Positions 13,340 through 62,233 of a stretch of 64,000 nt of DNA are shown piece after piece. Every line of letters starts with the position of its first letter. Position 1 is the stretch's first letter. Position numbers and translations under genes: made by a program. The notes beneath the pieces were generated by a model. That model saw only the letters and a program-made list of their open reading frames with translations. It made no database searches and was not told the origin of the DNA. This stretch comes from Solobacterium moorei (GTDB lineage: Bacteria > Bacillota_I > Bacilli_A > Erysipelotrichales > Erysipelotrichaceae), in assembly GCF_036323475.1 (NCBI RefSeq), contig NZ_AP028934.1, positions 2,170,001 through 2,234,000 of the forward strand, written 5' to 3'.

Positions 13340-13816
13340 TTACTTATGATATGGCTCGTTATGTAGAATACGAAAGCTACGATAGATTTGTTCTACTACT
13401 AGTATTCTACAAAGTTGATGTGGAAAGGTTACCTTAGAGATACGCCAGCGGAAATCAGCACGCTGAATCAATTCATTGCTTAACCCCAAAGACCCACCAA
13501 TCACAAATGTAATCTTACTTCTTGCATGATTATAACAATCCTGTATTTTATTTGCCAGTGCGATAGAATCGATATCCATGCCCGCAAGATCTAGTAAAAT
13601 CACATATTCATCATCACGTATTTTTTTTAATATCCGCTGTCCTTCCACAACCTTTACCTGTTCATTTTCGGCAACAGAGTTTGTCTCTGGTGCTTTTTCA
13701 TCCTGTACTTCAATGACTTCAAGCTTATCATAAGGACGAATACGCTTTACATACTCTGCGACACCATCCTTCATCCACTTCTCTTTTAGTTTGCCACAGG
13801 CAATAATCTTGATCAT
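13340..13816 (-). CDS. rlmH: 23S rRNA pseudouridine-1915 N3-methyltransferase RlmH
   Basis: A 158-residue SPOUT-fold methyltransferase that modifies helix 69 of 23S rRNA. Diagnostic stretches are IIACGKLKEKW at the N-terminus, FVIGGSLGLS (the SAM-binding knot) and LVVEQIYRSFRILHNEPYHK at the C-terminus. It overlaps the end of the HtrA-like gene by 4 bases (ATGA), so the two are translationally coupled. It is the last gene of the yybS-to-rlmH operon. An rlmH downstream of walJ and an htrA homologue matches the order in Bacillus. Confidence 0.96.
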   Translation of the reverse strand: MIKIIACGKLKEKWMKDGVAEYVKRIRPYDKLEVIEVQDEKAPETNSVAENEQVKVVEGQRILKKIRDDEYVILLDLAGMDIDSIALANKIQDCYNHARSKITFVIGGSLGLSNELIQRADFRWRISKVTFPHQLCRILVVEQIYRSFRILHNEPYHK

Positions 13817-14853
13817 TGTAGAACCACACCAATCTGCTTACTTTCACCGCCACGAATGATGGATACATTTACAGTATCGCCAGCAGAGTGCATGTACATT
13901 CTTGCGAGCACATCTTGATAAGAAGATATTTCGATACCATCAATCATTGTAATGATATCTCCAACCTGAAGATCATCTCCTGCATCTTTCTTCTCTACGA
14001 CTGTTTGGACATATACGCCAGTCTTCATATCAATGTTAATGCCCTGCGCACTCTTTTCATACGCAAGCATACTTGATACATTACGCACCACAACACCTAG
14101 TGCACCTCGTGTTACTTTTCCATTTGTTTTAAGTGCATTGTAAATTAGTTTGATTTCATTGGCAGTGATTGCATATTCCATACGAGAATTACCTTGGAAT
14201 GGTTGACTGGCAACAACACCAACGAGTGACCCATTTAAGTCAATCACTGCACCACCTTCTTGAATCGAAGTGATTGGAGTATCCATTTCTAGCATGGAAG
14301 ATAACCAAGTTGTTGTGCCATTCATTCGCCAAACACCAGGTTCTGAAACAATACCACTGCTGACGACAGCACTACCAGTCGTTAGATTTCTACCACTCAT
14401 CACAACCACATTTGCACCTTGTGCTAAAGCAGTTGTATCTAAAATCGTAAATGGCTTCACTTCAAAGTTTGTTGTTACCTGTATCACCGCAACTCCACTT
14501 TCACCATCATCACCAATAACAGTAGAGCTAACACGTACACCACTGTCAAACACAACATTTGGACTACCATTCTTTGTTGCCTTTGCGGTTGTTAAAATAT
14601 GCACTGTTTCCTTTTCCTTCGCAATGATAATCCCACTATAATAAGAACCATCACTTTCAACCGTAACCACACTACTTCTGCTCTTTTCAATCGCACTAGT
14701 ATAGTCTGATGTTGTATAGTTTATACTGTTCATATCCTCAAGGGCGCTATTACCTGTAGTATTCTTTTGCAGATTCCTAATCAACATTATTGTTAGGACT
14801 AGATTCCATACCAATAATAGCGCTAACGCTACCGGCATCAACTTCTTCATCAT
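13813..14853 (-). CDS. HtrA-like membrane protein with PDZ domain, catalytic triad lost
   Basis: A 346-residue protein with one N-terminal transmembrane anchor (residues 4-25), a trypsin-like S1C beta-barrel region (about 50-235) and a C-terminal PDZ domain (about 245-346, with GDIITMIDGIEISSYQDV). Fold motifs align with HtrA but the catalytic residues do not. Where HtrA has TNNHVV this protein has LTTAKAT; TDLAVIK is replaced by SGVAVIQ; GNSGGALV is replaced by IQEGGAVI. His, Asp and Ser therefore all appear to be missing. It occupies the htrC position next to walJ and rlmH. It starts inside the walJ gene (77-base overlap) with an AGAAAGGG site. It probably binds peptides or partners rather than cutting them. 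Confidence 0.85.
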   Translation of the reverse strand: MMKKLMPVALALLLVWNLVLTIMLIRNLQKNTTGNSALEDMNSINYTTSDYTSAIEKSRSSVVTVESDGSYYSGIIIAKEKETVHILTTAKATKNGSPNVVFDSGVRVSSTVIGDDGESGVAVIQVTTNFEVKPFTILDTTALAQGANVVVMSGRNLTTGSAVVSSGIVSEPGVWRMNGTTTWLSSMLEMDTPITSIQEGGAVIDLNGSLVGVVASQPFQGNSRMEYAITANEIKLIYNALKTNGKVTRGALGVVVRNVSSMLAYEKSAQGINIDMKTGVYVQTVVEKKDAGDDLQVGDIITMIDGIEISSYQDVLARMYMHSAGDTVNVSIIRGGESKQIGVVLQ

Positions 14854-15598
14854 ATATACCCTTTCTAATCATCTCATACTGTCCTGCTGCACATACAAGC
14901 AGGTTTTTATGCAGTAACCCAGAATGATTTTGTAATGCATGTACTGTTGTATCTAGTGCTTTCTTGCGTGTATTTGCTTGTTCACTCAAATGCGCAAGAA
15001 TTATCATCTTTGTCTTCTCTGTCACAATTTTATCAAGAACAGCTGCACAATCCTCATTGCACAAATGTCCTGTATCACTATAAATTCTTTGTTTGGTAAA
15101 CTGTGGACGACTCGTTGCCATCAACATCTGTACATCATGATTCGACTCTAACACAATATAGTCCGCATCTTTGATGCGTGGAATATGCTTCTCATTGATA
15201 TACCCAGTATCTGTAATATAGACAAGTTTTTCAATTCCATTTTCAACAATATATCCAACTGTGTTTAACGCATCATGTGATAACGCAATTGGCGTAAAGC
15301 GTAAGGTTTCAATTGTAAAGGAAGAACCTGGCTTTACGTAGAAAGTATCAATCTTTGGTATCTCAATTGGAGAGTAGATTGGTAGTGATGCAAAATGCTT
15401 GATTTGCGAGATATGATCAGAATGATTATGTGTGATTAGCACTGCATCTAAATCATCTAATGCTATCTGTAATTCTTTTAGATGCTCAAATAAATATTTC
15501 TTTGTTGTACCACAATCAATCATAACTTTTGTAGTACCATCTACTATTACAAAACTATTTCCTTTTGAGCCACTCGCTAATAGTGCAAAGTCCATCAT
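14777..15598 (-). CDS. walJ: WalJ/YycJ metallo-beta-lactamase-fold nuclease
   Basis: A 273-residue MBL-fold protein. It shows the metal motif THNHSDH, a VYITDTGY segment with a metal-binding Asp and conserved LASGSKGNS at the N-terminus, all typical of WalJ, which is reported as a 5'-3' exonuclease linked to DNA repair and cell-wall/replication coordination. The start overlaps the stop of the upstream M23-like gene (ATGA type). walR, walK, walH and walI, which normally precede walJ, are not present here. The preceding gene is instead the LysM/G5/M23-like protein, with dnaB before it. Confidence 0.9.
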   Translation of the reverse strand: MMDFALLASGSKGNSFVIVDGTTKVMIDCGTTKKYLFEHLKELQIALDDLDAVLITHNHSDHISQIKHFASLPIYSPIEIPKIDTFYVKPGSSFTIETLRFTPIALSHDALNTVGYIVENGIEKLVYITDTGYINEKHIPRIKDADYIVLESNHDVQMLMATSRPQFTKQRIYSDTGHLCNEDCAAVLDKIVTEKTKMIILAHLSEQANTRKKALDTTVHALQNHSGLLHKNLLVCAAGQYEMIRKGIYDEEVDAGSVSAIIGMESSPNNNVD

Positions 15599-17100
15599 CA
15601 GTCTAAACCCTCACAATCCATTAATGCAGAACATGCATTCACCGATTCACCATTCTGCAATAAGCTAAATGTTACATGTGGTCCTGTCGCTTTTCCAGTC
15701 ATACCAATCTTGCCAATGACATCACCTTTTCTTACAACAGTATCAACTTCAAGTGAACATGGTAAGTATAGATGCCCATATACACTCTGATAACCATTGT
15801 GGTGATCAATGATGACATAGTTTCCTAATTCATCCGTATAACCCTTTTCCTTGATGATTCCAGTATCAACAGCCATGACATTGCCCCATCGATTGTATCG
15901 ATTGATAAAATCAATCGACTCAAAACCTGCATAGCAACCATACTTACAGATGATTTCAGGATGTTCAACCGGATAGGCAAAACTACCACTACCGATCCCT
16001 AAATCACTATTCTTCCCAATTGCCACAACTTCATCTTGTCCAACTGCTGTTACAACAGATGAAAGCTCTTGCCCCGTTTTGAGTACTCCATTCACCCATG
16101 TCTCATGGTAGAGTACATTCTTTGAACCATTTGCACCAGTTTGTCTAACAACTGTTTTACCACTTTCAACAGTATTATCCTCTAGCACAGAAGTCTTATA
16201 GAACAATGTTTCCTTTTGTAGTCTTTGCTTATAAACATACACATCAATCGGTGATGTAAAGTAAGTCACACACAGTTTTGTGCCTGCAGTTAATGGTTTG
16301 CTACTATCTTTAATGATATCTTGATTGATACGCATTAACTGTTCAGCAGTTAATCCATAATTCTGTAAACCAATTGAATCTAGTGTATCTCCTTCTTCAA
16401 CTGTGTAATCCACTAGCTCCTCATTATCTCCATAGGATAAGTAATGTAATACTTCTTCTTCCGTGGTTTTAATATCCTTTACGGATGCGTACGCATCCGC
16501 AATCTGTACTGTTTCATTGATTTTAAAGCCCATTGTCATGACACCATATTCCGTTAAATTTGAAATTGTATGATGCTCGTGAATGGCTTCTAATGTATCT
16601 TCATCGATGAAATAGGAAAGATACTTTTGTAAAGCTGCCTGATAGATATCTTCTGACTTTACAAAGATTCTTGCATATTCTTTATTATCTGAGAAAGAAA
16701 TTGATTTACAGGCAATACTATATAGAGAATGGTCATCTAAATACTGCATAATTTCTGCATCAGCATTTGTATAGACATTTGAACTCATTTCTTCTACAAG
16801 ATACATATTATCCGCAATACCAATATGTGTATTTGGAAACATGCTTGCATACTTTTCTTTATAGACGGTCTTTAGATGCTCATCCATATAAGTCTTATCC
16901 TTGATGGTACCAATCAATTTATGATCTTCATATAATTTATAAATCTTATGCACATCAGAAGTCGTTACTTCTACAGTCTGGTTAAAGTTACCTACTGTAC
17001 CAACTTCAATTCCTTCAAAAGAAGGATAGAAAAAAGAAGGCACGATGACAATTGCGATTGATAGCACTAAGCATATTGTTACAGCAATCAAGTTTTTCAT
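15598..17100 (-). CDS. membrane-anchored LysM/G5/M23-like protein with incomplete zinc site
   Basis: A 500-residue protein. I chose the ATG at 17098-17100 because AAGGAGG precedes it; an upstream ATG overlapping the dnaB stop is also possible. There is one N-terminal transmembrane segment (about residues 4-22), a LysM-like repeat (VEEGDTLDSIGLQNYGL, about 235-285), a G5-like domain (about 300-375) and a C-terminal LytM/M23 domain (about 390-495). In the M23 domain the expected HxGxD motif reads FESID (His lost, Asp kept), YGHL is present, and the HxH motif reads GPHVTF (second His lost). Two expected ligands are absent, so peptidoglycan hydrolysis is doubtful; a binding or activator role like EnvC is possible. 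Confidence 0.82.
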   Translation of the reverse strand: MKNLIAVTICLVLSIAIVIVPSFFYPSFEGIEVGTVGNFNQTVEVTTSDVHKIYKLYEDHKLIGTIKDKTYMDEHLKTVYKEKYASMFPNTHIGIADNMYLVEEMSSNVYTNADAEIMQYLDDHSLYSIACKSISFSDNKEYARIFVKSEDIYQAALQKYLSYFIDEDTLEAIHEHHTISNLTEYGVMTMGFKINETVQIADAYASVKDIKTTEEEVLHYLSYGDNEELVDYTVEEGDTLDSIGLQNYGLTAEQLMRINQDIIKDSSKPLTAGTKLCVTYFTSPIDVYVYKQRLQKETLFYKTSVLEDNTVESGKTVVRQTGANGSKNVLYHETWVNGVLKTGQELSSVVTAVGQDEVVAIGKNSDLGIGSGSFAYPVEHPEIICKYGCYAGFESIDFINRYNRWGNVMAVDTGIIKEKGYTDELGNYVIIDHHNGYQSVYGHLYLPCSLEVDTVVRKGDVIGKIGMTGKATGPHVTFSLLQNGESVNACSALMDCEGLD

Positions 17101-17114
17101 GCCTTCCTCCTTCA

Positions 17115-18476
17115 TTATTGTGGTCTATTTGGGGCAATGTTATAGAGTGCGTTTGTATCTGCTTCAAACGCTACATATACCCTGCCCGTCGCACCATTAC
17201 GATGCTTTGCAAGATTGATTTCTAGACGCTCTGTTCCAGATTCTTTTGCTTGTTCTTTCGCCTCTTCGTTATAGTAAGACTCACGATACAACATCATAAC
17301 GATATCGGCATCCTGCTCAATCGCTCCAGATTCACGTAAGTCACTTAACATCGGCCGCTTATCTTCACGCGCTTCAACGTTACGACTTAACTGTGATAAT
17401 GCCACAACAGGTACCTTTAATTCGCGCGCAAGTGCTTTTAAACTACGTGAAATATCAGATACTTCCTGTTGACGGTTTCCACTAGAACGATCCGATGGTC
17501 CACTAATCAACTGAATATAGTCAATCATAACCATGTTTAATCCATGTTCCGCCTGTAATCGGCGACACTTCGAGAAAATTTCAGGAATCTTGATTCCTGC
17601 CATATCATCGATATAGATATTAGAAGCTTTTAATTCTGCCGAAGCTTCGTTAATACGGTTCCACTCTTCATTGGTTAAACGACCTGTCTTTAACTTATCA
17701 CCTTGGATATGACTCTTCGCACTTAATAGACGCATTGCGAGCTGTTCCGCACCCATCTCAAGTGAGAAAATCGCAATTGCACCCTTTTGTGCTTGTGGAA
17801 TTAGTGCAACGTTCATCGCTAGGTTTAGCGCAACCGCAGTCTTACCCATAGACGGACGTGCGGCTAAAACAATCATATCTCCACGCTGTAAGCCATGCGT
17901 AATACGATCAAAATCATTAAAGCCCGTCTTTAACCCTGTAATCTCAGATGAATTCTCCGAAGCTGCACGGATGGTCTTTAACACTTCATTTAAGACATCA
18001 TTTGGATTCTTAAACTCACCAGCTTTACGATTACGAGATACATTCAAGATTTCTTTCTCAGAACGATCCAAGTAATCATTTAAATCTGTTTGTCCATTAA
18101 ATCCTTCTTCCGCAACTCTTTCAGCAGCTTCAATCATACGACGCATCATCGCTTTATCACGAATCAAATTCACATATGTTAGTGTATTCGCACTCGTTAC
18201 TGCTGCGTTCATTAAGTTTAAAATATACTCCATTCCACCGGACTTATCTAAAAGATCAGTATCCTTTAAACGCGTAGCAACAGTGGTGGAATCAATCTGT
18301 GTTCCTTCTTGATACAATTCTTCACATGCATGATAAATACGACGATTGGCTTCAATGAAGAAATCGTCAGCTTCAAGCCCTTCTTCTAGCGCTGTACGAG
18401 AAGAACTTGGATATACAAGCATGGTTCCAAGCAAACTAGCTTCCGCTTCAGGTGCAGAAGGCAATACACGTGGCAT
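17115..18476 (-). CDS. dnaB: replicative DNA helicase DnaB
   Basis: A 453-residue hexameric replicative helicase (DnaC in Bacillus naming). The N-terminal DnaB_N domain is followed by the RecA-type ATPase with Walker A ARPSMGKTA, Walker B MVMIDYIQLI and the conserved LSQLSRNVEAREDKRP motif. It is in the canonical place after rplI (2-base gap). No purA follows; the LysM/G5/M23-like gene is next. Confidence 0.97.
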   Translation of the reverse strand: MPRVLPSAPEAEASLLGTMLVYPSSSRTALEEGLEADDFFIEANRRIYHACEELYQEGTQIDSTTVATRLKDTDLLDKSGGMEYILNLMNAAVTSANTLTYVNLIRDKAMMRRMIEAAERVAEEGFNGQTDLNDYLDRSEKEILNVSRNRKAGEFKNPNDVLNEVLKTIRAASENSSEITGLKTGFNDFDRITHGLQRGDMIVLAARPSMGKTAVALNLAMNVALIPQAQKGAIAIFSLEMGAEQLAMRLLSAKSHIQGDKLKTGRLTNEEWNRINEASAELKASNIYIDDMAGIKIPEIFSKCRRLQAEHGLNMVMIDYIQLISGPSDRSSGNRQQEVSDISRSLKALARELKVPVVALSQLSRNVEAREDKRPMLSDLRESGAIEQDADIVMMLYRESYYNEEAKEQAKESGTERLEINLAKHRNGATGRVYVAFEADTNALYNIAPNRPQ

Positions 18477-40991: not shown

Positions 40992-41091
40992 AGGTAATTG
41001 ATAAATTTTCTTACTTTTTTTCTATTGCTCAAGTGAAAAGATAAATTCCACTTCTAAAGAATAAACAATAAAGTGGAAGTAAGTCATTCAG

Positions 41092-41135
41092 AAATAGTAC
41101 TATCAAGGATTGATAATCTAAGATAGTACTATTTT
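41092..41135. terminator. hairpin near the 3' end of IS30 type A
   Basis: AAATAGTACTATC and GATAGTACTATTT form a perfect 13-bp stem with a 17-base loop and T5 on the plus side. It may stop transcription entering the element from outside. The equivalent at about 58420-58455 has base changes in the stem. Confidence 0.65.
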
Positions 41136-41319
41136 TAAGTTGAAAATGATTTTATTTTAGTTAGAATGAAGATGAAGTTACAGAAAAATGTGCGTATGAA
41201 AGGTAGGCAGAATCTACTGTTCAAAAAATTTGTAAGAGTTGATTCTACTTCGTTGTTTGGTGAAAGTTATATGCCGATCCTTCGTGTGTAATTGATTTTG
41301 AAACTTCTTGGTTATCTTC

Positions 41320-42594
41320 TTACTTTAGAAGATATGGTTTTAGAATTACTTCGTCTGGTGGGATTTCGGTAATTCCAAAATCATAGAGTTTCTTGGCCAT
41401 TTCTTCGTTGTAGAAATGGAGCAGCTGTATGGACGATCTTCCGTGCAGCTTTTCTTTTGGATATGAATTAATATGGATACTGATGAGATTTGCCTTTTCT
41501 TGTGATGTAAGTCCCAATGCATGGAGATCACATCCCTTTGGGCATATCTCTCTTACCAATAGGTGTAGGTTCTCTAGACTACCTTTCTGCCAAGAGGCCA
41601 TCGAATCACAGTAGAACATACGTGTCCTGCGAGTTCCATCTTCACGTATCTCCGCTTCTTCAGCTAGGACGAATTCACTTCCTCTGTCGGTTAATATGAC
41701 CTCGGCTTCTTTTTCGAACATTTCTTTTCCTAATATCTTTTCCAATAATAGGATCCCATCCAACATATGTAAGGAGTCCTTTACGGTTTGATAGATACAT
41801 ATCAACAGGTCATACTCTCTGAATTTGAAGGTCTGTAGGAAAGGTCCGTTGGACACGTCGTTGTATACCGTATCCATCTCTACGACCTTGGCATTTGGAT
41901 TCTTTTCCATGTATATCAAGAAGTCGGAGTACTTTCTTCCTGTCAGGTATCGATTGTCTTTACGTGGCTTGTATGTATTGCGCTTTTGTTTGGACATCTT
42001 TCGTCTTACGACACGTTTCAAATCGATGGCACCGATCGATACACCCACATCTTGGAAGACACCATTTTCGATATAGTTATATATCGTCTTTTCGGATAGT
42101 TTGATCTCTTTGTGGCTTTGAAGAATAGAGTAGATGGACTGACCTTTCTTAATCAATGGTAATAAGAGTTCACCGAGCTGCTTGATATCATTTACTGTCG
42201 CATTGACACCTTGTCGTGAAGATGTAAGTGTCATCTGGTAGTCGTGCTGTGCATCGAGGGCAGAGTATCGATATTTGTCATAGCGACAAGAGCGATAGTT
42301 TCCACATCCATTACAAGCTCCTGGTGACTTGTCCCTGCGAGTACATTTGAAAGGGACATAATCGATACAATCCAGAGTACAATGGCGTTCATGTTTACAG
42401 CGTTTGTAGTTAGCACACTCTAGAGGCAGATTACATTTGTATGCAAGGAAGCGATGTAGTTTGATTTCCTTTCCTATGGTTGATTTGTCTTTACCAAGGG
42501 TAGTAGCGATAGCTTGTCTGGTAGAACCATTTTCGATACCAGTTTCAATGATCTGTCTATCTGAATAAGACATGTGTGAATTCTTCGTTAACAT
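41320..42594 (-). CDS. IS30-family transposase (type A)
   Basis: A 424-residue transposase. The N-terminal HTH (SDRQIIETGIENGSTRQAIA, with DKSTIGKEIK) is followed by a Cys-rich stretch and the DDE catalytic domain: VVEMDTVYND, ILTDRGSEF and WQKGSLENLHL supply D, D and E. The ATG has AGGAGG upstream. It appears intact. Confidence 0.92.
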   Translation of the reverse strand: MLTKNSHMSYSDRQIIETGIENGSTRQAIATTLGKDKSTIGKEIKLHRFLAYKCNLPLECANYKRCKHERHCTLDCIDYVPFKCTRRDKSPGACNGCGNYRSCRYDKYRYSALDAQHDYQMTLTSSRQGVNATVNDIKQLGELLLPLIKKGQSIYSILQSHKEIKLSEKTIYNYIENGVFQDVGVSIGAIDLKRVVRRKMSKQKRNTYKPRKDNRYLTGRKYSDFLIYMEKNPNAKVVEMDTVYNDVSNGPFLQTFKFREYDLLICIYQTVKDSLHMLDGILLLEKILGKEMFEKEAEVILTDRGSEFVLAEEAEIREDGTRRTRMFYCDSMASWQKGSLENLHLLVREICPKGCDLHALGLTSQEKANLISIHINSYPKEKLHGRSSIQLLHFYNEEMAKKLYDFGITEIPPDEVILKPYLLK

Positions 42595-43932: not shown

Positions 43933-45165
43933 ATGGCTGGATTACCTAAAGGTTACGGTAGTGTTGTCAAGATGAAAGGCAAACGTATTAAACCATATAT
44001 GATCCGTGTGCCAGATGGAACGTATTTCAACGAAGAAACAGAAAAATGCTATGTACAATACAAGGTCATAGGCTACGCAAAGACAAAAGCAGAAGGCATC
44101 AGTATGCTTGAAAGATACCACGAAGCACCATTCGATGTGGATAACGAGATGACTTTTGCAGATATCTTTAAGAAAATGTTTGATGAAACTTTAGAAGACA
44201 AATCACATTCTACACATATTGCTTACGCAGCTGCCTTTAAAGCAGTACCTGTTCTTCATAATATGAAGTTCAAGGATATCAAAGTGATCCATCTTCAGAA
44301 AGCGATAGATAAATCCGGGAAAAACTATCCAACGATGAAGAAGATCAAGGTGATGTATAACGTCATGTATAAGTATGGAATGAAATATGATATCTGCCCA
44401 AGAGATTTATCATCTTACGTAGATATTATCCAGTACCACAAAAGAAATCCTAAAAAAGAAGATCGAAATCCATTTACGATTGAACAAATCAATACTTTCT
44501 GGTCTTTATCAGAGGATATGTGGTATGACGTAATTCTGATTCTTATCTATACCGGTGTACGTATCGGAGAACTCCTCGAGTTAAAAAAGGAAGACATTCA
44601 TCTGGATGAACAATGGTTCCAGGTTACACAAAGCAAAACCGAGAGCAGAATTCGAAGAGTACCTATTGCAGACAGTATCCTGCCATTCTTTCAGAAATGG
44701 TACGACTACTCGAAAGCAGATACTCTTCTCTGCACTCCGGATATGGAACCGTTCAAGTACAGAAACTATTACGACAGTTACTGGAAACCGTTAATTGAAA
44801 ATCTCAATCTGAGGTACTACACCCCACATTGCACAAGACACACATGTATTTCACTCCTGACAGAAGCAAGAGTCGATCAAACAAGTATCAAAAAGATTGT
44901 CGGTCATGCAGGAGCGATGACACTGACAGAAAGAGTTTATACACACCTGGATATTGGTGTACTGATTGCTGCAGTCAATCAGATGTATGTTCCTTCTGAA
45001 TACAGACAGGTGCTAAAAAATAGAACGGAAAAGACTACCACAGTTCTCCACCACAGAATTGGTGAGAATTTGCTACATGTTTTGCTACATGTTTTGCTAC
45101 AACTTGTAGCAAATCCCCCTTCAGCAAGGTACAAAAAAAGCCCCAAAATATGGGACTTTTCCTGA
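43933..45165 (+). CDS. int: tyrosine site-specific integrase of the rpsI-proximal element
   Basis: A 410-residue integrase. An N-terminal arm-binding region and SAM-like core-binding domain (about 75-175) are followed by the catalytic domain with TGVRIGELLEL (Arg), HCTRHTC (His-x-x-Arg), VGHAG and ERVYTHLD (Tyr nucleophile). The stop codon is 17 bases from the rpsI stop, converging on it, so rpsI's 3' end is the probable attachment site. The last 35 codons contain tandem 12-bp repeats and a perfect dyad (45069-45113), and the final codons overlap the rpsI terminator hairpin. Confidence 0.93.
   Translation: MAGLPKGYGSVVKMKGKRIKPYMIRVPDGTYFNEETEKCYVQYKVIGYAKTKAEGISMLERYHEAPFDVDNEMTFADIFKKMFDETLEDKSHSTHIAYAAAFKAVPVLHNMKFKDIKVIHLQKAIDKSGKNYPTMKKIKVMYNVMYKYGMKYDICPRDLSSYVDIIQYHKRNPKKEDRNPFTIEQINTFWSLSEDMWYDVILILIYTGVRIGELLELKKEDIHLDEQWFQVTQSKTESRIRRVPIADSILPFFQKWYDYSKADTLLCTPDMEPFKYRNYYDSYWKPLIENLNLRYYTPHCTRHTCISLLTEARVDQTSIKKIVGHAGAMTLTERVYTHLDIGVLIAAVNQMYVPSEYRQVLKNRTEKTTTVLHHRIGENLLHVLLHVLLQLVANPPSARYKKSPKIWDFS
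45069..45113 (+). repeat. 12-bp tandem repeats and dyad at the 3' end of int
   Basis: TTTGCTACATGT is repeated at 45069-45080 and 45081-45092. A third partial copy opens the perfect dyad TTTGCTACAA-c-TTGTAGCAAA (45093-45113). Their place next to the probable attachment site suggests integrase arm-type binding sites. Confidence 0.75.
45133..45162 (-). terminator. terminator of rplM-rpsI, lying inside the last codons of int
   Basis: On the minus strand AAAAGTCCC-ATATTTT-GGGGCTTTT with one mismatch is followed by a T-run. It lies about 20 bases after the rpsI stop. The same bases encode KKSPKIWDFS at the integrase C-terminus. Confidence 0.7.
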
Positions 45166-45182: not shown

Positions 45183-45584
45183 TTAACGCTTGGAGAACTG
45201 TGGAGCGCGACGTGCGCCCTTCAAACCGTACTTCTTTCTTTCCTTCTCACGGGAATCACGTGTTAGGAAACCAGCCTTCTTTAGTGCTGGTCTGTAATCA
45301 GCAGAAGCTTCGAGAAGAGCTCTTGCAATACCATGACGCATTGCACCAGCTTGGCCAGTATATCCGCCACCTGCTACATTGATCTTAATATCGAACTGTT
45401 CCTTAGTTTCTGTAAGTACTAATGGTGAGTTTACTACCATACGTAATGTTGCTTGTGGTAGATATTCTTCTAAAGTACGACCATTAACTGTTACAACACC
45501 TGTACCCGGAGTCATGAAGACACGAGCAACGGACTGCTTACGGCGTCCTGTTCCAACATAAGTTACTTTCTTCTTAGTTGCCAT
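45183..45584 (-). CDS. rpsI: 30S ribosomal protein S9
   Basis: A 133-residue S9. The N-terminal [19 protein letters not shown], central [19 protein letters not shown] and basic tail RRAPQFSKR are typical. It follows rplM by 15 bases with AAGGAGG upstream. Its 3' end lies next to the converging integrase gene and is probably the element's attachment site; the protein end appears intact. Confidence 0.97.
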
Positions 45585-45599
45585 CTTGTCTTATCCTCC

Positions 45600-46034
45600 T
45601 TACTTTACCTTCAGCTCAACAGGCTTCTGAGCTGCATGTGGGTGTTCGGCACCCGTGTAAACAAATACATGCTTACGTTGTACATCACCCAATTTGTTAT
45701 GTGGTAACATACCCTTGATAGCTTTTTCAACCCATTCAACAGTGTAGTTTTCACGCATAACCTTTGTACTCCTTGTACGAAGTCCTCCTGGATACATAGA
45801 ATGACTATAGTAGAACTTCTTTGCATCCTGGTCACCACTGATCTTAATCTTGTCTGCATTGATTACGATTACATAATCTCCACAGTCAACGTGTGGTGTG
45901 TAGGCAGGCTTGTGCTTGCCTCTTAATAATGTTGCTACCTGAGTAGCTAGACGTCCTAATGTGCAGTCTGTTCCATCAACGATATACCACTGACGAACAA
46001 CTTCACTTGGCTTTAACATAGTTGTCTGACGCAT
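45600..46034 (-). CDS. rplM: 50S ribosomal protein L13
   Basis: A 144-residue L13 starting MRQTTMLKPSEVVRQWYIVD (ATG 46032-46034, GGAGG upstream). Features are LGRLATQVATLLRGKHKPAY, HVDCGDYVIVINA and GMLPHNKLGD. It normally follows truA, but here truA lies 6.4 kb away behind nested insertion sequences. The gene keeps its own promoter. Confidence 0.97.
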   Translation of the reverse strand: MRQTTMLKPSEVVRQWYIVDGTDCTLGRLATQVATLLRGKHKPAYTPHVDCGDYVIVINADKIKISGDQDAKKFYYSHSMYPGGLRTRSTKVMRENYTVEWVEKAIKGMLPHNKLGDVQRKHVFVYTGAEHPHAAQKPVELKVK

Positions 46035-46092
46035 TTTTACTTTCCTCCATATGTAGTTTCCGGGGCTACATTGGCATGAAGTGCCATTTATC

Positions 46093-46121
46093 ATTTTAGC
46101 CGCTGATACCTCACAAGTCAA
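46093..46121 (-). promoter_or_regulatory. promoter of rplM-rpsI
   Basis: On the minus strand TTGACT (46116-46121), 17 bases, TAAAAT (46093-46098), with a leader of about 50 bases to the L13 start. The -35 ends exactly one base before the first base of the target duplication of the IS1202-type element (46122), so the promoter just escaped the insertions. Confidence 0.8.
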
Positions 46122-46149
46122 TTAGATTATTTCGATTCTGTTAAGTTCC

Positions 46150-47787
46150 CCTCAATTATTTTTAAAAGTTCCTCTTTGCACTATTTTCTTAGTGAAAGTT
46201 CCCTTTTATGATAATGGCACAAGGGATATGTGCCAGGAAAGTGGAGAAAAGGAGGAATATTTTATGACTAGCACATACAAACAGCTTTCTTTTGACGAAC
46301 GACTCATTATTCAAAATCTGTTGTCTGATCCTAACATCACGCTCAAGATGATTGCCCTTACTCTTAACAGGAGTCCCAAGGCCATTCGCTATGAGATAAC
46401 ACACCATCTTAGAATTGTCGTCCGTGCCAATACTCATAATAAGTGTGGTAGACAAAATCAATGTAATCGCACAAGGTTATGTACTCACTGTCTACAAGGT
46501 CGTTGTAAGTTCTGTAAACATGATAACTGCAATGATCTATGTTCCGATTTCATCTCTTCACCAATATGCAAACATACATCTCGTTTCCCCTATGTCTGCA
46601 ACAATTGCCCAGATGCCAAAACCTGCAAGTTGCCAAAGGTATTCTATATGGCCGATGTTGCCCAAAAACAGAGGGATGACAATGTCAGTAGTTGGAAGGA
46701 AGGACCAAAGAAATCAGAAGCACAAATGAAGATGATTGTCGATGCCTTTGAGAAAGGCGTCAAACAGAACCTTTCACCAGACATCATCATACACAACAAT
46801 CAGTTGGACATATCAGTATCTACCGCATATCGTTATATTCATTTTCGTCATATGGGCGCCATCATCAATGTAGACCTCAAGCGTCAGGTCAAATATAAAA
46901 CACGCTCTTCCAGCAAACATGTCGTGATACCAATCAACTATGATTGGCTTGAAGGCAGAAGATATGAAGACTATCTCGAACGTATCGAGAATGAAGATGT
47001 TTCCATCAATATATGGCAAATGGATACAATACTCGGCAAGCAAGGCGATGAAGAGAAATGTGTCCTTTCACTCCTGCATACAAGATCGAATCTACAGTTA
47101 TATTTTCTGTTAAAGGAAAAAAGCATGTTGGCTGTCCAGCGTGCATTCGAAATCATCAAGGATGTACTGGGACCTGAACTATTTTCTATGACCTTTCCAA
47201 TCATTCTTACTGACAATGGCTCTGAGTTCCACGATCCTCTAAGTCTAGAGACCGATGCATATACAGGAGAAAAACTAATATCCATCTACTACTGCAAGGC
47301 CGGAAGAAGTGATCAGAAAGGTAAATGTGAGAAGAACCATGAACACTTTAGAGAATGTGTTCCAAAGGGAAAGAGTATGAATGCATTGACCCAGAAGGAC
47401 ATCAACTATGTGTCTGACATGGTAAACAATTATCCTCGTAGATCCTTAAACTACAATTCACCTATCGATATCGCCGCTCTATCACTAAACAAAAAGGTGT
47501 TAAGTCTTAACAAGTTGACTCACCTCAACATCAAACAAGTTAAGCTTACACCTATCATCCACTAGCCGATTTGGCACATATCCCTAACCTACAAAAAGGA
47601 ACTTTCGATGAGAAAAAATTTAAACCATCATTGAAAGCCGAGCTTTCGTATGCCCAAATCGCCTGTCTATACATATTCAATATCACAAAATATCTTATAA
47701 GTACACTATTACAGTAAAATGTTTCTTCTCTTTAGCCCTAAAAATGGGGAACTTTCGTTGAAAAGGAACTTTCGTTGAAAATTGAGC
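46150..47787 (+). mobile_element. IS30-family element (type B)
   Basis: A 1,638-bp element with ends reading inward CTCAATT-type (CCTCAATTATTTTTAAAAG at left; GCTCAATTTTCAACGAAAG at right). The 12-bp target duplication CTGTTAAGTTCC lies at 46138-46149 and 47788-47799. It carries one transposase. The 3' 220 bases are non-coding and contain repeated AACTTTCGTTGAAAA units. It is inserted into the left target duplication of the IS1202-type element. Confidence 0.9.
46264..47565 (+). CDS. IS30-family transposase (type B)
   Basis: A 433-residue transposase from MTSTYKQLSFDERLIIQNLL (AAAGGAGG upstream). It has an N-terminal HTH, a Cys-rich domain (CGRQNQCNRTRLCTHC and further Cys pairs, about residues 62-130), and a DDE domain with IWQMDTILGK, ILTDNGSEFHD and KGKCEKNHEHF. 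It appears intact and is about half identical in pattern to the type C transposase at 49487. Confidence 0.92.
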   Translation: MTSTYKQLSFDERLIIQNLLSDPNITLKMIALTLNRSPKAIRYEITHHLRIVVRANTHNKCGRQNQCNRTRLCTHCLQGRCKFCKHDNCNDLCSDFISSPICKHTSRFPYVCNNCPDAKTCKLPKVFYMADVAQKQRDDNVSSWKEGPKKSEAQMKMIVDAFEKGVKQNLSPDIIIHNNQLDISVSTAYRYIHFRHMGAIINVDLKRQVKYKTRSSSKHVVIPINYDWLEGRRYEDYLERIENEDVSINIWQMDTILGKQGDEEKCVLSLLHTRSNLQLYFLLKEKSMLAVQRAFEIIKDVLGPELFSMTFPIILTDNGSEFHDPLSLETDAYTGEKLISIYYCKAGRSDQKGKCEKNHEHFRECVPKGKSMNALTQKDINYVSDMVNNYPRRSLNYNSPIDIAALSLNKKVLSLNKLTHLNIKQVKLTPIIH

Positions 47788-47869
47788 CTGTTAAGTTCCT
47801 CTGAATCGAAGTTGATATTGTCTTAATGAACCGAAAGGGAAAATGCCCCATTTATAGAAAGGAATTGTT

Positions 47870-47896
47870 ATGATTCATTCCATTAGATTGGATTGA
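47870..47896 (+). CDS. 8-residue leader peptide before the IS1202-type transposase
   Basis: ATG ATT CAT TCC ATT AGA TTG GAT TGA, preceded by AGAAAGGA at good spacing. Its stop ends 2 bases before the transposase ATG at 47899, which itself has no ribosome site. This arrangement would make transposase synthesis depend on translation of the leader. The same leader is present in copy 2 (62110-62136). Confidence 0.5.
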   Translation: MIHSIRLD

Positions 47897-47898
47897 AT

Positions 47899-49299
47899 AT
47901 GAAAAAGATTATATTAACCCCTATGGAAGAAAACAAATACAACATTATTAAAGAACTGGTTGATCATTCTGGCAATAAACGCCGTGCGGCATTAAAACTA
48001 AATTGTTCTATTCGTACTATCAACCGCCTGATTACACGTTATAAGTCTGAAGGCAAATCCTCATTTTCACATGGTAATCGTGGACGATTACCATCAAACA
48101 CATTCTCACTGGAAACGAAAAACAAAATCATTGAACTCTATCTTAACGAGTATCTTGATGCCAACATCACTCATTTCAGTGAAATCGTCCAGATGGACCT
48201 CGGCATCTCCATCAGTGACACCACTATTAGAAACTGGTTATCAGAACACGATGTCTTGTCCCCAAAGGCCCATCGAAAAACCAAGAAACAATTAAAGGAA
48301 CGTTTGACAAAACGATTAGACCAAACAACATCTACAAAGGCCAGAAACGCAATCAATGAACAAATCGAATCAATTGAAGATGATACGCCTCATTCACGAA
48401 GATCTAGATCCAAATATATGGGAGAGATGATTCAAATGGACGCTTCAAGCTACGAATGGATTCCTGGCGAGATATGGCATCTACACCTAGCTGTAGATGA
48501 TGCGACCGGTACTGCTGTTGGAGCCCACTTTGATATACAGGAGACCCTACGTGGCTATTACAACGTTTTCCATCAGATACTAGTCGACTATGGCATACCC
48601 GCTCTATTCTATACGGATAAACGAACCGTATTTGAATACAGAAAGAAAACCAAGGCCTTCGACGACGAGGATACCTTCACACAGTTCTCCTACGCCTGCC
48701 ATAACCTTGGTGTCGAAATCAAAACAACGAGCATCGCACAAGCCAAAGGACGCATCGAACGTCTCAACCAGACTTTCCAATCACGTTTGCCAGTTGAACT
48801 TAGACGTGCTCGTATTACTTGTATGGCGGACGCGAATAAGTTCCTAAAATCCTACCTAAAGGAATTCAATGCAAGGTTCGCCCTACACTTGAATAGTACC
48901 AATTCTGTATTTGAAGTACAACCAGATATAGAAACAATCAATCAAACATTGGCAATCATTTCATCGAGAATAGTCGATCAAGGCAACTGTATCAAGTTCA
49001 AAAACAAGTATTGGATGGCCTATGACAAGGAACACAATAGAATTCCACTAAGACCTAAGATGGAGGTATTGGTTATTGAATCATTTGATCAAAAGATCTT
49101 TGTCAATGCGATGGATACACTATACATCTTAGAAGAAGTACAAGTGTTTGAAGAAAATTCGGGTGAGTTCGATAATATCATTGAAACTCCTGAGAAAAAG
49201 AAAGTATATATTCCGCCGATATCTCACCCTTGGAGGAAGTATTCATATCAATTATTTACAAAAAAGCAGAACTATTATAGCTCCGCTAATGTTCGTTAA
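47899..49299 (+). CDS. IS1202/ISNCY-type transposase, copy 1
   Basis: A 466-residue transposase. An N-terminal HTH (KRRAALKLNCSIRTINRLI) and second HTH region (ISISDTTIRNWL) precede an integrase-like DDE core: MIQMDASSYEW, LFYTDKRTVFEY and AQAKGRIERLN. The C-terminal beta domain resembles the Mu-C type. The protein is identical to that of copy 2. A TTG six bases earlier could also be read as the start. Confidence 0.88.
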   Translation: MKKIILTPMEENKYNIIKELVDHSGNKRRAALKLNCSIRTINRLITRYKSEGKSSFSHGNRGRLPSNTFSLETKNKIIELYLNEYLDANITHFSEIVQMDLGISISDTTIRNWLSEHDVLSPKAHRKTKKQLKERLTKRLDQTTSTKARNAINEQIESIEDDTPHSRRSRSKYMGEMIQMDASSYEWIPGEIWHLHLAVDDATGTAVGAHFDIQETLRGYYNVFHQILVDYGIPALFYTDKRTVFEYRKKTKAFDDEDTFTQFSYACHNLGVEIKTTSIAQAKGRIERLNQTFQSRLPVELRRARITCMADANKFLKSYLKEFNARFALHLNSTNSVFEVQPDIETINQTLAIISSRIVDQGNCIKFKNKYWMAYDKEHNRIPLRPKMEVLVIESFDQKIFVNAMDTLYILEEVQVFEENSGEFDNIIETPEKKKVYIPPISHPWRKYSYQLFTKKQNYYSSANVR

Positions 49300-49329
49300 T
49301 TTTTAAGACATTTTCATTTTTGGTTGACA

Positions 49330-49359
49330 TTAGATTATTTCGATTCTGTTAAGTTCCTC
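49330..49359 (+). repeat. right target duplication of the IS1202-type element
   Basis: 30 bases starting TTAGATTATTTCGATTCTG. The left copy is 46122-46149 plus 47800-47801. Its last four bases (CCTC, 49356-49359) are also the first bases of the neighbouring IS30-type end, so that IS30 was there before the IS1202-type element arrived. Confidence 0.85.
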
Positions 49360-49374
49360 AAGTGAAAAGTTAAA

Positions 49375-51008
49375 CCTCAATTATTTTTGAAAGTTCCTCT
49401 TTTGATTTTATTATTGGTGAAGGTTCCCTTTTTTAATATGATGTCTTTAGAGATGGTGCTGGCAGTTCAAGAAAGGAGGCAATCATATGGTTGCCAGCGG
49501 TTATAAACATCTATCTTTAGAAGAACGTAAATCTATAGAAGTTCTATTGAATCATTCCGACATCACCCTCAAACAGATAGCACTCTCTATCAATCATTCA
49601 TCGAAATGCGTACGTGAAGGAATCAGAGCACACAGGGTCGTACGTGTCCACTCGAATAAGACGAACAAATGTGGACGGCAAGATTCTTGTAAGAAACATC
49701 GCTTATGCACATATTGCATAAGCGGTGATTGTAAGTCTTGTAAGCACAAGGACTGCAACGAGCTATGTGATGACTTCGTCTCATATCCCGTTTGCGAGAG
49801 AATAGAGCGATTCCCTTATGTCTGTTCAGGTTGTCCTGACATACATAAATGTCATCTTCCCAAGTACTTCTACATCGCACGAATAGCACAGGATAAATAT
49901 ACGCAAGACAAATTAGAATGGAGGTCCGGACCTCGCAAGAGCGAAGCAGAAATGAAATCTATCGTGGAGGCATTTCAAAATAATATTCCTAAAAAGCAAT
50001 CCATCGATACGATTATCCATACTAACGACCTGAATATATCCGCCTCTACTGCATATAGATACATTCGTGAGCACCAGATTCCCGGGATTTCAAACATCGA
50101 CCTAAAACGTCAGGTACGCTACACGCAACGCAGTTCTTCAAGGCATCATCCTATATCGATTGACTACGATTTCCTCGAAGGACGCAAATACGAGGACTTC
50201 CTAGCAGCCCTAGAAACAGCAGGACCGGATGTAAACGTATGGGAAATGGATACGATCATCGGGAAGAAAGGGAGCGATGAGAAGTGTGTACTGAGCCTGT
50301 TACACAGACGTTCCAATCTTCAATTATATTTTCTCTTACGACACAAGAATATGTTTGAGGTAACGTATCTATTTGATACTATCAAAAGTTTCTTAGGCAT
50401 CGACTTATTCAAAGATACGTTCACTATCATACTCACCGATAATGGCACTGAGTTCCATGATCCACTATCGCTTGAGACAGACCCTGAAACGGGAGAAAAA
50501 CTCATCAGTATCTATTTCGCAAGGCCTAGACGTTCTGATGACAAAGGCAAATGTGAAAAGAACCATGAGCACTTCAGAGAGAAGATTCCAAAAGGATGCA
50601 GTATGAACAGCCTTACAAAATACGACATCAATTTCGTATCAAATCAGGTAAATAATTATGTACGCAGGAAGTTAAATTACCAATCACCCTACAGCATTGC
50701 CAAACTAGTACTAAACGAAAAGGTATTAGAACTAAACCGCCTTCATCCCATTTCACCCAAGGCAGTTGATCTAACACCTATCCTCCATTAGCATCAGACC
50801 CTAACAGCACCATCTCTTTATATTCAAAGGGAGCTTTCAAGAGAAATTCAAAAAAATTTCATTTGAAAGTATACTTTTCGTGCGGTCAAAATGCCCAATA
50901 TCTATTTAGATTATAGCTTAAAAACGCATCAATTCAAAACCCACAGAAGGAAAAGCCCCCAATTAAAGGGAACTTTCGTTAAAAGGGAGCTTTCACTGAA
51001 AATTGAGC
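49375..51008 (+). mobile_element. IS30-family element (type C)
   Basis: A 1,634-bp element with the same CTCAATT-type ends as type B. The 13-bp target duplication GTGAAAAGTTAAA lies at 49362-49374 and 51009-51021. The target is the terminal inverted repeat of the type A-like element. The 3' 217 bases are non-coding, with AACTTTCGTTAAAAGGGAGC-like repeats. Confidence 0.9.
49487..50791 (+). CDS. IS30-family transposase (type C)
   Basis: A 434-residue transposase (MVASGYKHLSLEERKSIEVL, AAAGGAGG upstream). The layout matches type B: HTH, Cys-rich domain (CGRQDSCKKHRLCTYC, CKSCKHKDC), then DDE with VWEMDTIIGK, ILTDNGTEFHD and DDKGKCEKNHEHF. It appears intact. Confidence 0.92.
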   Translation: MVASGYKHLSLEERKSIEVLLNHSDITLKQIALSINHSSKCVREGIRAHRVVRVHSNKTNKCGRQDSCKKHRLCTYCISGDCKSCKHKDCNELCDDFVSYPVCERIERFPYVCSGCPDIHKCHLPKYFYIARIAQDKYTQDKLEWRSGPRKSEAEMKSIVEAFQNNIPKKQSIDTIIHTNDLNISASTAYRYIREHQIPGISNIDLKRQVRYTQRSSSRHHPISIDYDFLEGRKYEDFLAALETAGPDVNVWEMDTIIGKKGSDEKCVLSLLHRRSNLQLYFLLRHKNMFEVTYLFDTIKSFLGIDLFKDTFTIILTDNGTEFHDPLSLETDPETGEKLISIYFARPRRSDDKGKCEKNHEHFREKIPKGCSMNSLTKYDINFVSNQVNNYVRRKLNYQSPYSIAKLVLNEKVLELNRLHPISPKAVDLTPILH

Positions 51009-51140
51009 GTGAAAAGTTAAATTCCACTTCTAAGGTATGAAAGTTGAATTTAATCATTCACCAAATTCTAGTTGAATTGACTCTTACACTTCTAGCTCAA
51101 TATAAGTGCCTATCCTTCGTGTTTTTAGGAGGAAAACATT

Positions 51141-52244
51141 ATGTTAACGAAGAATTCGCATATGTCTTATTCAGATAGACAGATCATCGAAACTGGTATC
51201 GAAAATGGTTCTACCAAACAAGCTATCACTCCTACCTGCAGCCGTATCATGAAGGCCCCTTGGGTATGCAATGGCTGTCCTCGTTTCTCTGCATGCAAAA
51301 AGAGAAAGTATCGCTACATCCCTGCACAGGCACATAGTGCTTATGAATCTACTCTTCATCTGTCTAGAGAGAAGATCCGTACTGGGGAAAAAGGTCTTAG
51401 ATTTCTCGATAATCTCGTCACACCTTTGATTCATGACCAAAGGCAAACTGTCGCTCACGTATTCTCCACTCATGGTGAACAGATGGGAATATCCCGTTCT
51501 ACTTTTTACCGCTATGTCAATGACAATAAACTCACCACCCGCAATATAGATCTTCCCAAGCGAGTTCGCTATCCGCTCTCCAAAAAGAATATCAAACGTG
51601 GCGATAACACAATGATAGACAATCAATCGTGCCGTGTGGGACGCGATTATACTGCCTTTCAGGAATTCATTGCCCAACATCCGAAAGCTAATATCGCTGA
51701 GATGGATTCCGTCATCGGTAAGAAAGGTGTCGGCGAAAAGGTACTTCTAACCCTACTATTACGTAAGAGTAAATTTATGTTTGCCTTCCTAAGGAATAGA
51801 AATACACAAGCTTCTGTAACAGAAGTATTCGACTACATCCAAAGGAAAATCGGCTTTGCAAGGTTCGCTACTATGTTCCGTGTAGTGCTTACGGACAACG
51901 GTCCTGAATTCAAGGACCCCATTTCCTTGGAACATGGTACACGCAACGTACAGCGCTGTCGTATATTTTATTGTGATTCCCGTGCTTCCCAACAAAAGGG
52001 GCGTATTGAAAAGAATCATGAATATATTCGAAAATATCTGCCCCAAGGAACTTCCTTTAACGACCTTACACAAGAAAAGGTAAATCTAATGATGAGCCAT
52101 ATCAATTCCGTCAAGCGTGACTCATTGGATGGTCGTTCACCATTTGAATGTCTCACTAGAGCAGAACTCAAAACAATAAAAAAGCTTGGATTAACACCAA
52201 TCGATCCAGATGAAGTCAATCTAAGCCTAGACCTAATTCAATAG
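51141..52244 (+). CDS. chimeric IS30-family transposase, probably inactive
   Basis: 367 residues. Residues 1-29 (MLTKNSHMSYSDRQIIETGI and onward to KQAI) match the type A transposase almost exactly. From residue 30 (TPTCSRIMKAPWVCNGC) it matches a different IS30 lineage up to the normal C-terminus, with DDE motifs IAEMDSVIGK, VLTDNGPEFKD and QQKGRIEKNHEYI. The second half of the HTH and the first Cys-rich segment (about 70 residues) are missing at the joint. The catalytic core is complete, but DNA recognition should be impaired. Confidence 0.8.
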   Translation: MLTKNSHMSYSDRQIIETGIENGSTKQAITPTCSRIMKAPWVCNGCPRFSACKKRKYRYIPAQAHSAYESTLHLSREKIRTGEKGLRFLDNLVTPLIHDQRQTVAHVFSTHGEQMGISRSTFYRYVNDNKLTTRNIDLPKRVRYPLSKKNIKRGDNTMIDNQSCRVGRDYTAFQEFIAQHPKANIAEMDSVIGKKGVGEKVLLTLLLRKSKFMFAFLRNRNTQASVTEVFDYIQRKIGFARFATMFRVVLTDNGPEFKDPISLEHGTRNVQRCRIFYCDSRASQQKGRIEKNHEYIRKYLPQGTSFNDLTQEKVNLMMSHINSVKRDSLDGRSPFECLTRAELKTIKKLGLTPIDPDEVNLSLDLIQ

Positions 52245-52480: not shown

Positions 52481-53566
52481 TTATTTCGATTCTTCGACTG
52501 AATTTGATACAATTCTTCCACTTTTTGTATAAATGAGAATTGGCTTAAAGTTTGCTTGCTTGCGTAAGCGTTCTTCAAGTTGTGGAAGTAGAATATTTGC
52601 TAGTGGGATTCCACGTTCTTCTTCAAGAATATGAATGCTAGCTTCCCCTTGATTAATTTCATAATATCCCAATAATTCTTGGCTGTGTCTTGTTGTCATT
52701 GCATAGAACTGATGACTAGCATTTTCTTTGATAGCTTGTTCTAAAGCAGGTAGTTCTTGGCTTGTACAAGAGATATTATCTCCCACTAAAAACTCTCGAA
52801 CCATTCCTGTTTCATGTAGTGCTAATGTTTTAAAGTAATCAACATACTCCAATGTCAGTCCTTCTGCTGGACTATTTTTATGCGGGAAGCTTTTACGCTT
52901 TGCCTCTAGAATCTCTTGGATATGTGATGGTTCATACTTACGCTTCCCAATTTCAATTAGCACAGAAGCCATCATGCGAACCATATAACGTAAGAAACCC
53001 TTTCCTACAAAGGCTAATGTAATGACACCCTCCTCTTCCGTTAATGTAATGGAGCGAACTGTTCTTACTTGATCCGGATATTCTTCTAGTGAACTGGAAT
53101 TTAAGGATGTAAAATCATGTGTTCCTACAAGGTAAGGTATACCTTCCTTCATCTTTTCTACATCTAGATGAATTGGACATTGGAAGGCTGTATCCTTTGT
53201 AAATACGTTGTATGGTCCATTATTGATGCGATAGTTATACTGCTTAAAGCGTACATTATATCTTGCGTGGAAACAATCATCCTCTTCTTCTACCGACATG
53301 ATATGAATATCATTTGGAAGGAAAGCATTAATTGCGCCCATCCACTTACGTGCTGGCATCTCACGTTTTGTATCAAACATGAATACCTGTACTTTTGCAT
53401 TTACTCCTGCATCCGTTCTACCAGATCCAATCACATTGACCTTTTCTTGTGTAATACGCTCAATCACTGCCTCTAGGATTTCCTGAATAGAATCACCCTT
53501 ACGCTGTGATTGCCAACCAGAGTAGTTTCTGCCGACGTAAGATACGACACATTTATAGCGCATCAT
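52481..53566 (-). CDS. truA: tRNA pseudouridine(38-40) synthase TruA with C-terminal extension
   Basis: A 361-residue protein. Residues 1-250 are a normal TruA: VSYVGRNYSGWQSQ, catalytic Asp in GSGRTDAGVNAKVQ, FHARYNVRFKQYNYRI and GKGFLRYMVRMM. It modifies the anticodon arm of many tRNAs. The usual length is about 245 residues; here about 110 more follow (HETGMVREFLVGDNISCTSQ to VEESK) with no motif I can name. The ATG overlaps the ecfT stop by 4 bases. Confidence 0.93.
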   Translation of the reverse strand: MMRYKCVVSYVGRNYSGWQSQRKGDSIQEILEAVIERITQEKVNVIGSGRTDAGVNAKVQVFMFDTKREMPARKWMGAINAFLPNDIHIMSVEEEDDCFHARYNVRFKQYNYRINNGPYNVFTKDTAFQCPIHLDVEKMKEGIPYLVGTHDFTSLNSSSLEEYPDQVRTVRSITLTEEEGVITLAFVGKGFLRYMVRMMASVLIEIGKRKYEPSHIQEILEAKRKSFPHKNSPAEGLTLEYVDYFKTLALHETGMVREFLVGDNISCTSQELPALEQAIKENASHQFYAMTTRHSQELLGYYEINQGEASIHILEEERGIPLANILLPQLEERLRKQANFKPILIYTKSGRIVSNSVEESK

Positions 53567-58084: not shown

Positions 58085-58519
58085 TCCAAAAGAAAAGCTG
58101 CACGGAAGATCATCCATACAGCTGCTCCATTTCTACAACGAAGAAATGGCCAAGAAACTCTATGATTTTGGAATTACCGAAATCCCACCAGACGAAGTAA
58201 TTCTAAAACCATATCTTCTAAAGTAAGAAGATAACCAAGAAGTTTCAAAATCAATTACACACGAAGAATCGGCATATAACTTTCACCAAACAACGAAGTA
58301 GAATCAACTCTTACAAATTTTTTGAACAGTAGATTCTGCCTACCTTTCATGCGCTCATTTTTCTGTTACTTCACCTTCATTCTAACTAAAATAAAATCAT
58401 TTTCAACTTAAAAATAGTACCATCTTGGATTATCAATCCTTGCCAGTACTATTTCTGAATGACTTACTTCCACTTTATTGTTTATTCTTTAGAAGTGGAA
58501 TTTAACTTTTCACTTGAGC
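58085..58519 (+). mobile_element. 3' remnant of IS30 type A
   Basis: It matches the transposase-proximal 3' end of the element at 41027-42731, in the opposite orientation, up to the terminal GCTCAAGTGAAAAG-type end at 58519. The 5' three quarters are absent; the group II intron begins at the break. Non-coding from 58227 to 58519, it includes the mutated version of the subterminal hairpin. Confidence 0.88.
58086..58226 (+). pseudogene. IS30 type A transposase, last 46 codons
   Basis: PKEKLHGRSSIQLLHFYNEE and onward to PYLLK is the same as the end of the transposase at 41320. The upstream coding region is replaced by the intron on the other strand. Confidence 0.9.
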
Positions 58520-62204: not shown

Positions 62205-62233
62205 GAAATTTGAAAAAAAGAAATTAAAAAGTG

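Follow-up and report, generated by a model that had tools for sequence, protein, structure and literature searches.

An HtrA-like protein without its catalytic triad in the walJ operon of Solobacterium moorei: a candidate non-proteolytic partner of a LysM-G5-M23 protein

In Bacillus, the cortex-lytic enzyme SleB has a partner, YpeB, that is cleaved by the protease HtrC (PMC13393411); therefore, proteins at the HtrC position already touch hydrolase regulation. MamO is an HtrA protein that has lost catalysis and serves as a scaffold in the presence of active HtrAs (PMC4794232), degenerate LytM proteins are hubs for wall enzymes (PMC9662197), and SpoIIQ has lost one zinc histidine in B. subtilis and kept it in Clostridium (PMC4982068). 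The lineage history is known for few HtrA-family pseudoproteases, and in Gram-positive bacteria little is understood of the HtrC/WalJ end of the wal locus. We describe an operon located in a 64,000-nucleotide stretch of the Solobacterium moorei genome (NZ_AP028934.1, positions 2,170,001 to 2,234,000; hereafter the window), in which the genes for an HtrA-like protein (htr) and for a LysM-G5-M23 protein lie on either side of walJ. The neighbors of htr, walJ and rlmH, are those of htrC in the wal locus of Bacillus, where the order is walJ-htrC-rlmH. With HtrC (YycK), the HtrA-like protein shares the architecture of transmembrane helix, protease domain, and PDZ domain; it differs in that the triad is fully lost, a LysM-G5-M23 gene is located upstream of walJ, and walRK are not at the locus.

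The HtrA-like protein comprises an N-terminal transmembrane helix, a Trypsin_2 domain (8.9e-13), and a PDZ_2 domain, as determined with Pfam. Structure prediction and alignment were carried out, as had been proposed with the original prediction, which was made from the sequence alone. The AlphaFold2 model reached a predicted local distance difference test (pLDDT) score of 91.5 and matched DegP/DegQ in Foldseek (E 8e-24). The trypsin-like fold and the PDZ domain of HtrA/DegP proteins (S1C) are present and the His-Asp-Ser triad is absent, the respective positions reading ILTTAKAT, GESGVAV, and IQEGGAV, with K91, G120, and E199 in place of His, Asp, and Ser. In the alignment of the copies from the genus, no conserved His column was found, the triad columns hold many different residues, no Ser, His, or Cys is conserved at the triad site, and two of the copies contain no extracytoplasmic His at all. 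The entropy of the protease domain amounts to 2.13 bits in dead copies versus 1.69 in active ones, and that of the PDZ domain is unchanged (~2.05). The transmembrane helix of the genus copies retains W16, N17, and L20. These residues belong to a WNxxLT motif (residues 16 to 21, inside the helix) that is near-invariant throughout the family, in active and dead copies alike, and suggests an intramembrane contact.

For comparison, the loci of ~70 congeners and >50 other family members (about 120) were read and aligned, many of these genomes being draft assemblies. The HtrA triad is intact in 0/65 operon copies of the genus versus 33/42 copies from other genera. The genus copies group into a single clade (support 100) in a tree of 118 HtrA proteins, and this clade branches from within triad-intact copies; the orthologues from another family (f2) and the second HtrA of these genomes, described below, are triad-intact in the same tree. 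Since parsimony requires eight changes of triad state in total, one loss ancestral to the genus and several separate losses are indicated. Orthology to HtrC by descent is consistent with the location between walJ and rlmH and with the grouping with the operon copies, not with the second HtrA. The ratio of nonsynonymous to synonymous substitution rates (dN/dS) of the pseudoprotease between congeners ranges from 0.02 to 0.31, which signifies purifying selection, although somewhat above the values of neighboring genes. With such low ratios and open frames in 65 genomes, pseudogene status was ruled out.

The second protein shows LysM, G5, and M23 (9e-20) domains in Pfam. Its AlphaFold2 model (pLDDT 92.4) matches LytM-type domains in Foldseek, namely, those of EnvC (TMt 0.80), DipM, Csd2, and SpoIIQ. 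While the M23/LytM fold is present, two of the three zinc ligands are gone, i.e., the His of HxxxD (H398F) and the second His of HxH (H482T); D402, the YxH histidine H448, and the first HxH histidine H480 are kept. The original prediction had described two proteins deprived of three triad residues and two zinc ligands, respectively, that keep membrane anchors and binding domains (transmembrane helices, PDZ_2, LysM, and G5), flank walJ, and are tightly coupled with walJ and rlmH without walRK, all of which was borne out. It is very probable, judging from the aligned sequences, that neither protein is catalytically active in this species.

Catalysis through relocated residues, such as a Ser-Lys dyad or other zinc ligands, is very unlikely. 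In the window species and its sister, the residue at the triad His position is K91, and C390, C394, H438, and H439 lie within the M23 domain; residue 199, however, is Glu, and the genus copies show no conserved nucleophile at that site. Neither alternative His/Asp/Ser residues nor alternative zinc ligands appeared as conserved candidates, and since sequence conservation reveals no such residues the active sites have probably not moved. E399, next to F398, is common in zinc-intact relatives and for this reason is no replacement ligand. The cysteines C390, C394, C495, and C501 are near-invariant family-wide, including zinc-intact relatives; they are therefore probably disulfide forming, which suggests two disulfides in a secreted protein.

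Relatives of the M23 protein are present in 38/59 genera of the family, and all five M23 positions are unchanged in 56/61 genus copies and in 56/58 copies from outside the genus. With the further genus copy G034, whose positions read HDHAS, the count within the genus becomes 56/62. Losses were found in the window genome (G000) and its independent sister genome G244, which carry the identical residues F398 and T482, in G025, G241, G034, and G134, and, outside the genus, in G085/G181. Because 65/65 genus HtrA copies lack the triad and G244 shares F398/T482, the losses are not due to chance or sequencing error; an annotation or sequencing error was ruled out by the recurrence of the same losses in independent genomes. 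Within the genus, the triad loss is thus conserved and the zinc-site loss is not. The conserved system is, as far as residues can predict activity, a dead protease with a live hydrolase, the second enzyme being lost in few lineages only, and the description as two dead enzymes would fit the species pair G000 and G244, not the system as a whole.

In a tree of walJ, rlmH, and dnaB, the M23 losses correspond to no fewer than three events inside the genus, with G000 and G244 next to the intact G035/G198. The M23 gene tree, unlike this tree, places the degenerate genus copies in one clade, a grouping that we read as long-branch attraction. Measured against control genes, M23 evolves fastest in the lineages with the loss (G241, G034, the G000/G244 stem, and G025; z 2.7 to 4.1, with z = 3.0 for the stem). 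In addition, 10/90 highly conserved M23 columns are changed in the window species, where intact congeners average 2.9, and the M23 proteins of G000 and G244 are 64% identical at a WalJ identity of 76 to 78%, whereas most congeneric pairs with comparable WalJ identity show 72 to 85% for M23. The acceleration and the changed columns would be expected if both proteins were losing function and persisted by inertia. We assign little probability to such decay, given the purifying selection on the pseudoprotease and its open frames described above, the M23 dN/dS of 0.17 for the window pair (at a high dS of 1.6), the full-length M23 frames and confident fold, and the preservation of LysM, G5, and the cysteines. 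The M23 data are read as changed or relaxed constraint after the loss, with the protein retained.

The window genome encodes a second HtrA (C1:1887007 region, L126), ~297 kb from htr, with intact TNNHVI, DIAV, and GNSGG motifs. The two proteins are alike in belonging to the HtrA family, having a single PDZ domain, and being membrane anchored; they differ in triad state, locus, and clade. The triad motifs of the second HtrA are kept in 44/44 genomes checked. Thirty-four of these copies match the strict pattern, while ten fail only in the residues after Asp, and six of those ten that were inspected read DIG, with Asp present. Across other genera, triad loss versus presence of a second HtrA gives a trend only (7/9 versus 16/33, Fisher p = 0.15).

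For the analysis of rate covariation, branch lengths were fitted to one common tree and the general rate was removed. The HtrA-like/M23 pair showed the highest correlation of 10 gene pairs (r = 0.55, p = 5e-9), although p-values of this kind are optimistic because branches are not fully independent observations. With the second HtrA as an extra extracytoplasmic control, the correlation was 0.53, with or without the M23-dead genomes. The value for M23 and the second HtrA was 0.01 (0.17 without the M23-dead genomes), and that for the two HtrA proteins was borderline (0.23 to 0.24). When the proteins were divided into domains, the dead protease domain covaried with every part of M23 (0.46 to 0.50) and the PDZ domain with the M23 N-terminal part only (0.38).

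These values bear on two explanations that involve the second HtrA. HtrA proteins act both as chaperones and as proteases, and in B. subtilis a protease-inactive HtrA raises both fitness and the yield of enzymes (reviewed in PMC12826053); the pseudo-HtrA could accordingly be a general secretion chaperone that retained the protease-independent half of HtrA function once proteolysis had passed to the second HtrA, with M23 merely one client. The universal presence of the intact second HtrA in the genomes checked and a PDZ domain as conserved as in active copies agree with this idea; we nevertheless consider it unlikely, as the covariation is selective for M23 and WalJ, not the second HtrA, and most of the family has htr in the walJ operon. 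Still less probable is a modulation of the active second HtrA, e.g., by mixed trimers or substrate delivery. MamO, which promotes proteolysis by MamE (PMC4794232), provides the precedent, and it resembles the HtrA-like protein in having an HtrA fold without catalysis, in coexisting with active HtrA relatives, and in a loss that was repeated independently. However, the covariation between the two HtrA proteins is weak and their genes lie far apart. MamO differs in binding metal via surface histidines; here no His is conserved, a MamO-type conserved surface-His metal site was not found across the genus copies, and the PDZ domain and single transmembrane helix are kept.

On the precedents of HtrC, MamO, degenerate LytM proteins, and SpoIIQ, together with the covariation, we infer a non-proteolytic partnership: at about even confidence, the HtrA-like protein is most likely an HtrC-position pseudoprotease that partners the co-encoded LysM-G5-M23 endopeptidase. 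An active HtrA ancestor would have lost catalysis before the genus diversified, leaving a membrane-tethered protease-plus-PDZ scaffold. This pseudo-HtrA would physically contact the wall-binding endopeptidase, serve it as an anchor, a chaperone, or an allosteric regulator, and hold or present it where membrane and wall meet. In G000 and G244, the zinc site would have been lost secondarily, so that the action of the pair may there be limited to the binding of peptidoglycan and other wall proteins. More tentatively, and as a possibility rather than an expectation, the two could form a dedicated pair, in which the HtrC-position protease gave up proteolysis at the origin of the genus to partner the wall endopeptidase and, in few descendants, the endopeptidase lost catalysis as well, so that the walJ operon would encode a complex that binds the wall and has a structural or sensory role only.

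Several observations weigh against the partnership. The HtrA-like protein also covaries with WalJ (r = 0.36 to 0.44), whose gene overlaps htr by 77 nucleotides, and in triad-intact genera the correlation with M23 is not distinctive (r = 0.35, below the 0.53 for M23 and GdpP). The domain-level contrast is weaker; it involves three control genes only, and the WalJ values are similar. In some genomes (G090, G134, and about a dozen others), the operon contains the M23 gene but no htr, so a strict dependence of M23 on htr does not exist, and rate covariation is in any case an indirect sign of partnership. The complex of dead enzymes suggested in the original prediction stands in part: both proteins are very probably dead here, under selection, and evolving in correlation, but M23 is intact in nearly all relatives. 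Beyond this species, the family offers the states before and after in one place, with active copies in sister genera, dead ones in a whole genus, and repeated later hydrolase loss, a natural series in which the non-cutting contribution of an HtrA scaffold to wall hydrolases can be studied.

As a degenerate LytM domain, the M23 protein resembles the EnvC/NlpD-type activators. Like EnvC, NlpD, DipM, Csd2, and SpoIIQ, it combines an M23 fold with lost zinc ligands and membrane or wall association; it differs from them in its LysM-G5-M23 architecture, and from degenerate LytM regulators in that the zinc-site loss is recent and confined to few species of an otherwise intact family. That it activates Amidase_3 enzymes in the manner of EnvC/NlpD, as the match to the EnvC, DipM, Csd2, and SpoIIQ domains might indicate, is highly improbable, because no match to Amidase_3 (PF01520) was found in the genome by a search that was positive in 8/14 control genomes. 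Activation by this classical route therefore cannot apply directly. A DipM-like control of other lytic enzymes is possible: the genome holds ~10 NlpC/P60 matches and 1 CHAP match. One other M23 protein of the genome has intact motifs and is encoded beside a CtpA-type gene.

The features of the operon are listed in Table 1. The gene order on the minus strand is DUF2232, gdpP, rplI, dnaB, LysM-G5-M23, walJ, htr, and rlmH, with overlaps of 1 nucleotide for dnaB/M23 and for M23/walJ, 77 for walJ/htr, and 4 for htr/rlmH. Neither walR nor walK was found at the locus in the gene order of the window; the top-scoring WalK-like kinase encoded in the genome lies ~580 kb off and falls below the family cut-off. 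A promoter scan of the operon region gave chance-level results only.

Table 1. Operon features by position in the window
Feature	Positions	Strand	Remarks
HtrA-like gene (htr)	13813..14853	-	346 residues; HtrC position; transmembrane helix residues 5-32, protease-like domain 50-244, PDZ 250-345; Pfam, AlphaFold2, Foldseek
K91 codon, triad His position	14581..14583	-	Alignment with intact relatives
G120 codon, triad Asp position	14494..14496	-	Alignment
E199 codon, triad Ser position (GNSGG to IQEGG)	14257..14259	-	Alignment
PDZ domain of HtrA-like protein, residues 250-343	13825..14106	-	Pfam PDZ_2, 2.3e-14
walJ (MBL-fold hydrolase), metal motif THNHSDH intact	14777..15598	-	3' end overlaps htr by 77 nucleotides
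LysM-G5-M23 gene	15598..17115	-	505 residues; transmembrane helix 4-29, zinc site lost; Pfam, AlphaFold2, Foldseek
F398 codon, replaces first zinc His (HxxxD)	15922..15924	-	Alignment with relatives
T482 codon, replaces third zinc ligand (second His of HxH)	15670..15672	-	Alignment with relatives
LysM domain of M23 protein, residues 237-284	16264..16407	-	Pfam, 2e-8
G5 domain of M23 protein, residues 296-367	16015..16230	-	Pfam, 2.2e-11
rlmH, conserved downstream neighbor	13340..13816	-	NCBIfam RlmH above cut-off
dnaB/dnaC replicative helicase, conserved upstream neighbor	17115..18476	-	NCBIfam TIGR00665 above cut-off; order kept in relatives

The order gdpP-rplI-dnaB-M23-walJ-htr-rlmH is kept in most of the first 60 loci, some being without walJ or htr. 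The walJ/htr overlap (14777-14853) measures 50 to 185 nucleotides in all 64 genus loci compared and often 4 in other genera. No walJ was detected in operons L074, L077, L080, L084, L089, L093, L094, and L100, where the M23 gene and htr are adjacent, and in one genus of the family, g73 (L103, L108, L117, and L118), the M23 gene is tandemly duplicated within the same operon.

Elsewhere in the window, four transposase open reading frames are stacked between truA (52481-53566) and rplM (45600-46121) in the region 45600-52244; one 1,530-nucleotide element of this stack has an exact inverted copy at 60677-62206. An integrase gene (43933-45165) ends 18 nucleotides from the 3' end of rpsI (45183-45584), which is possibly the integration site. 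A group II intron-type reverse transcriptase/maturase reading frame (56252-57604) is located between ecfA and ispD-like genes, and a 435-nucleotide inverted repeat (41027-41461 and 58085-58519) is 97% complementary.

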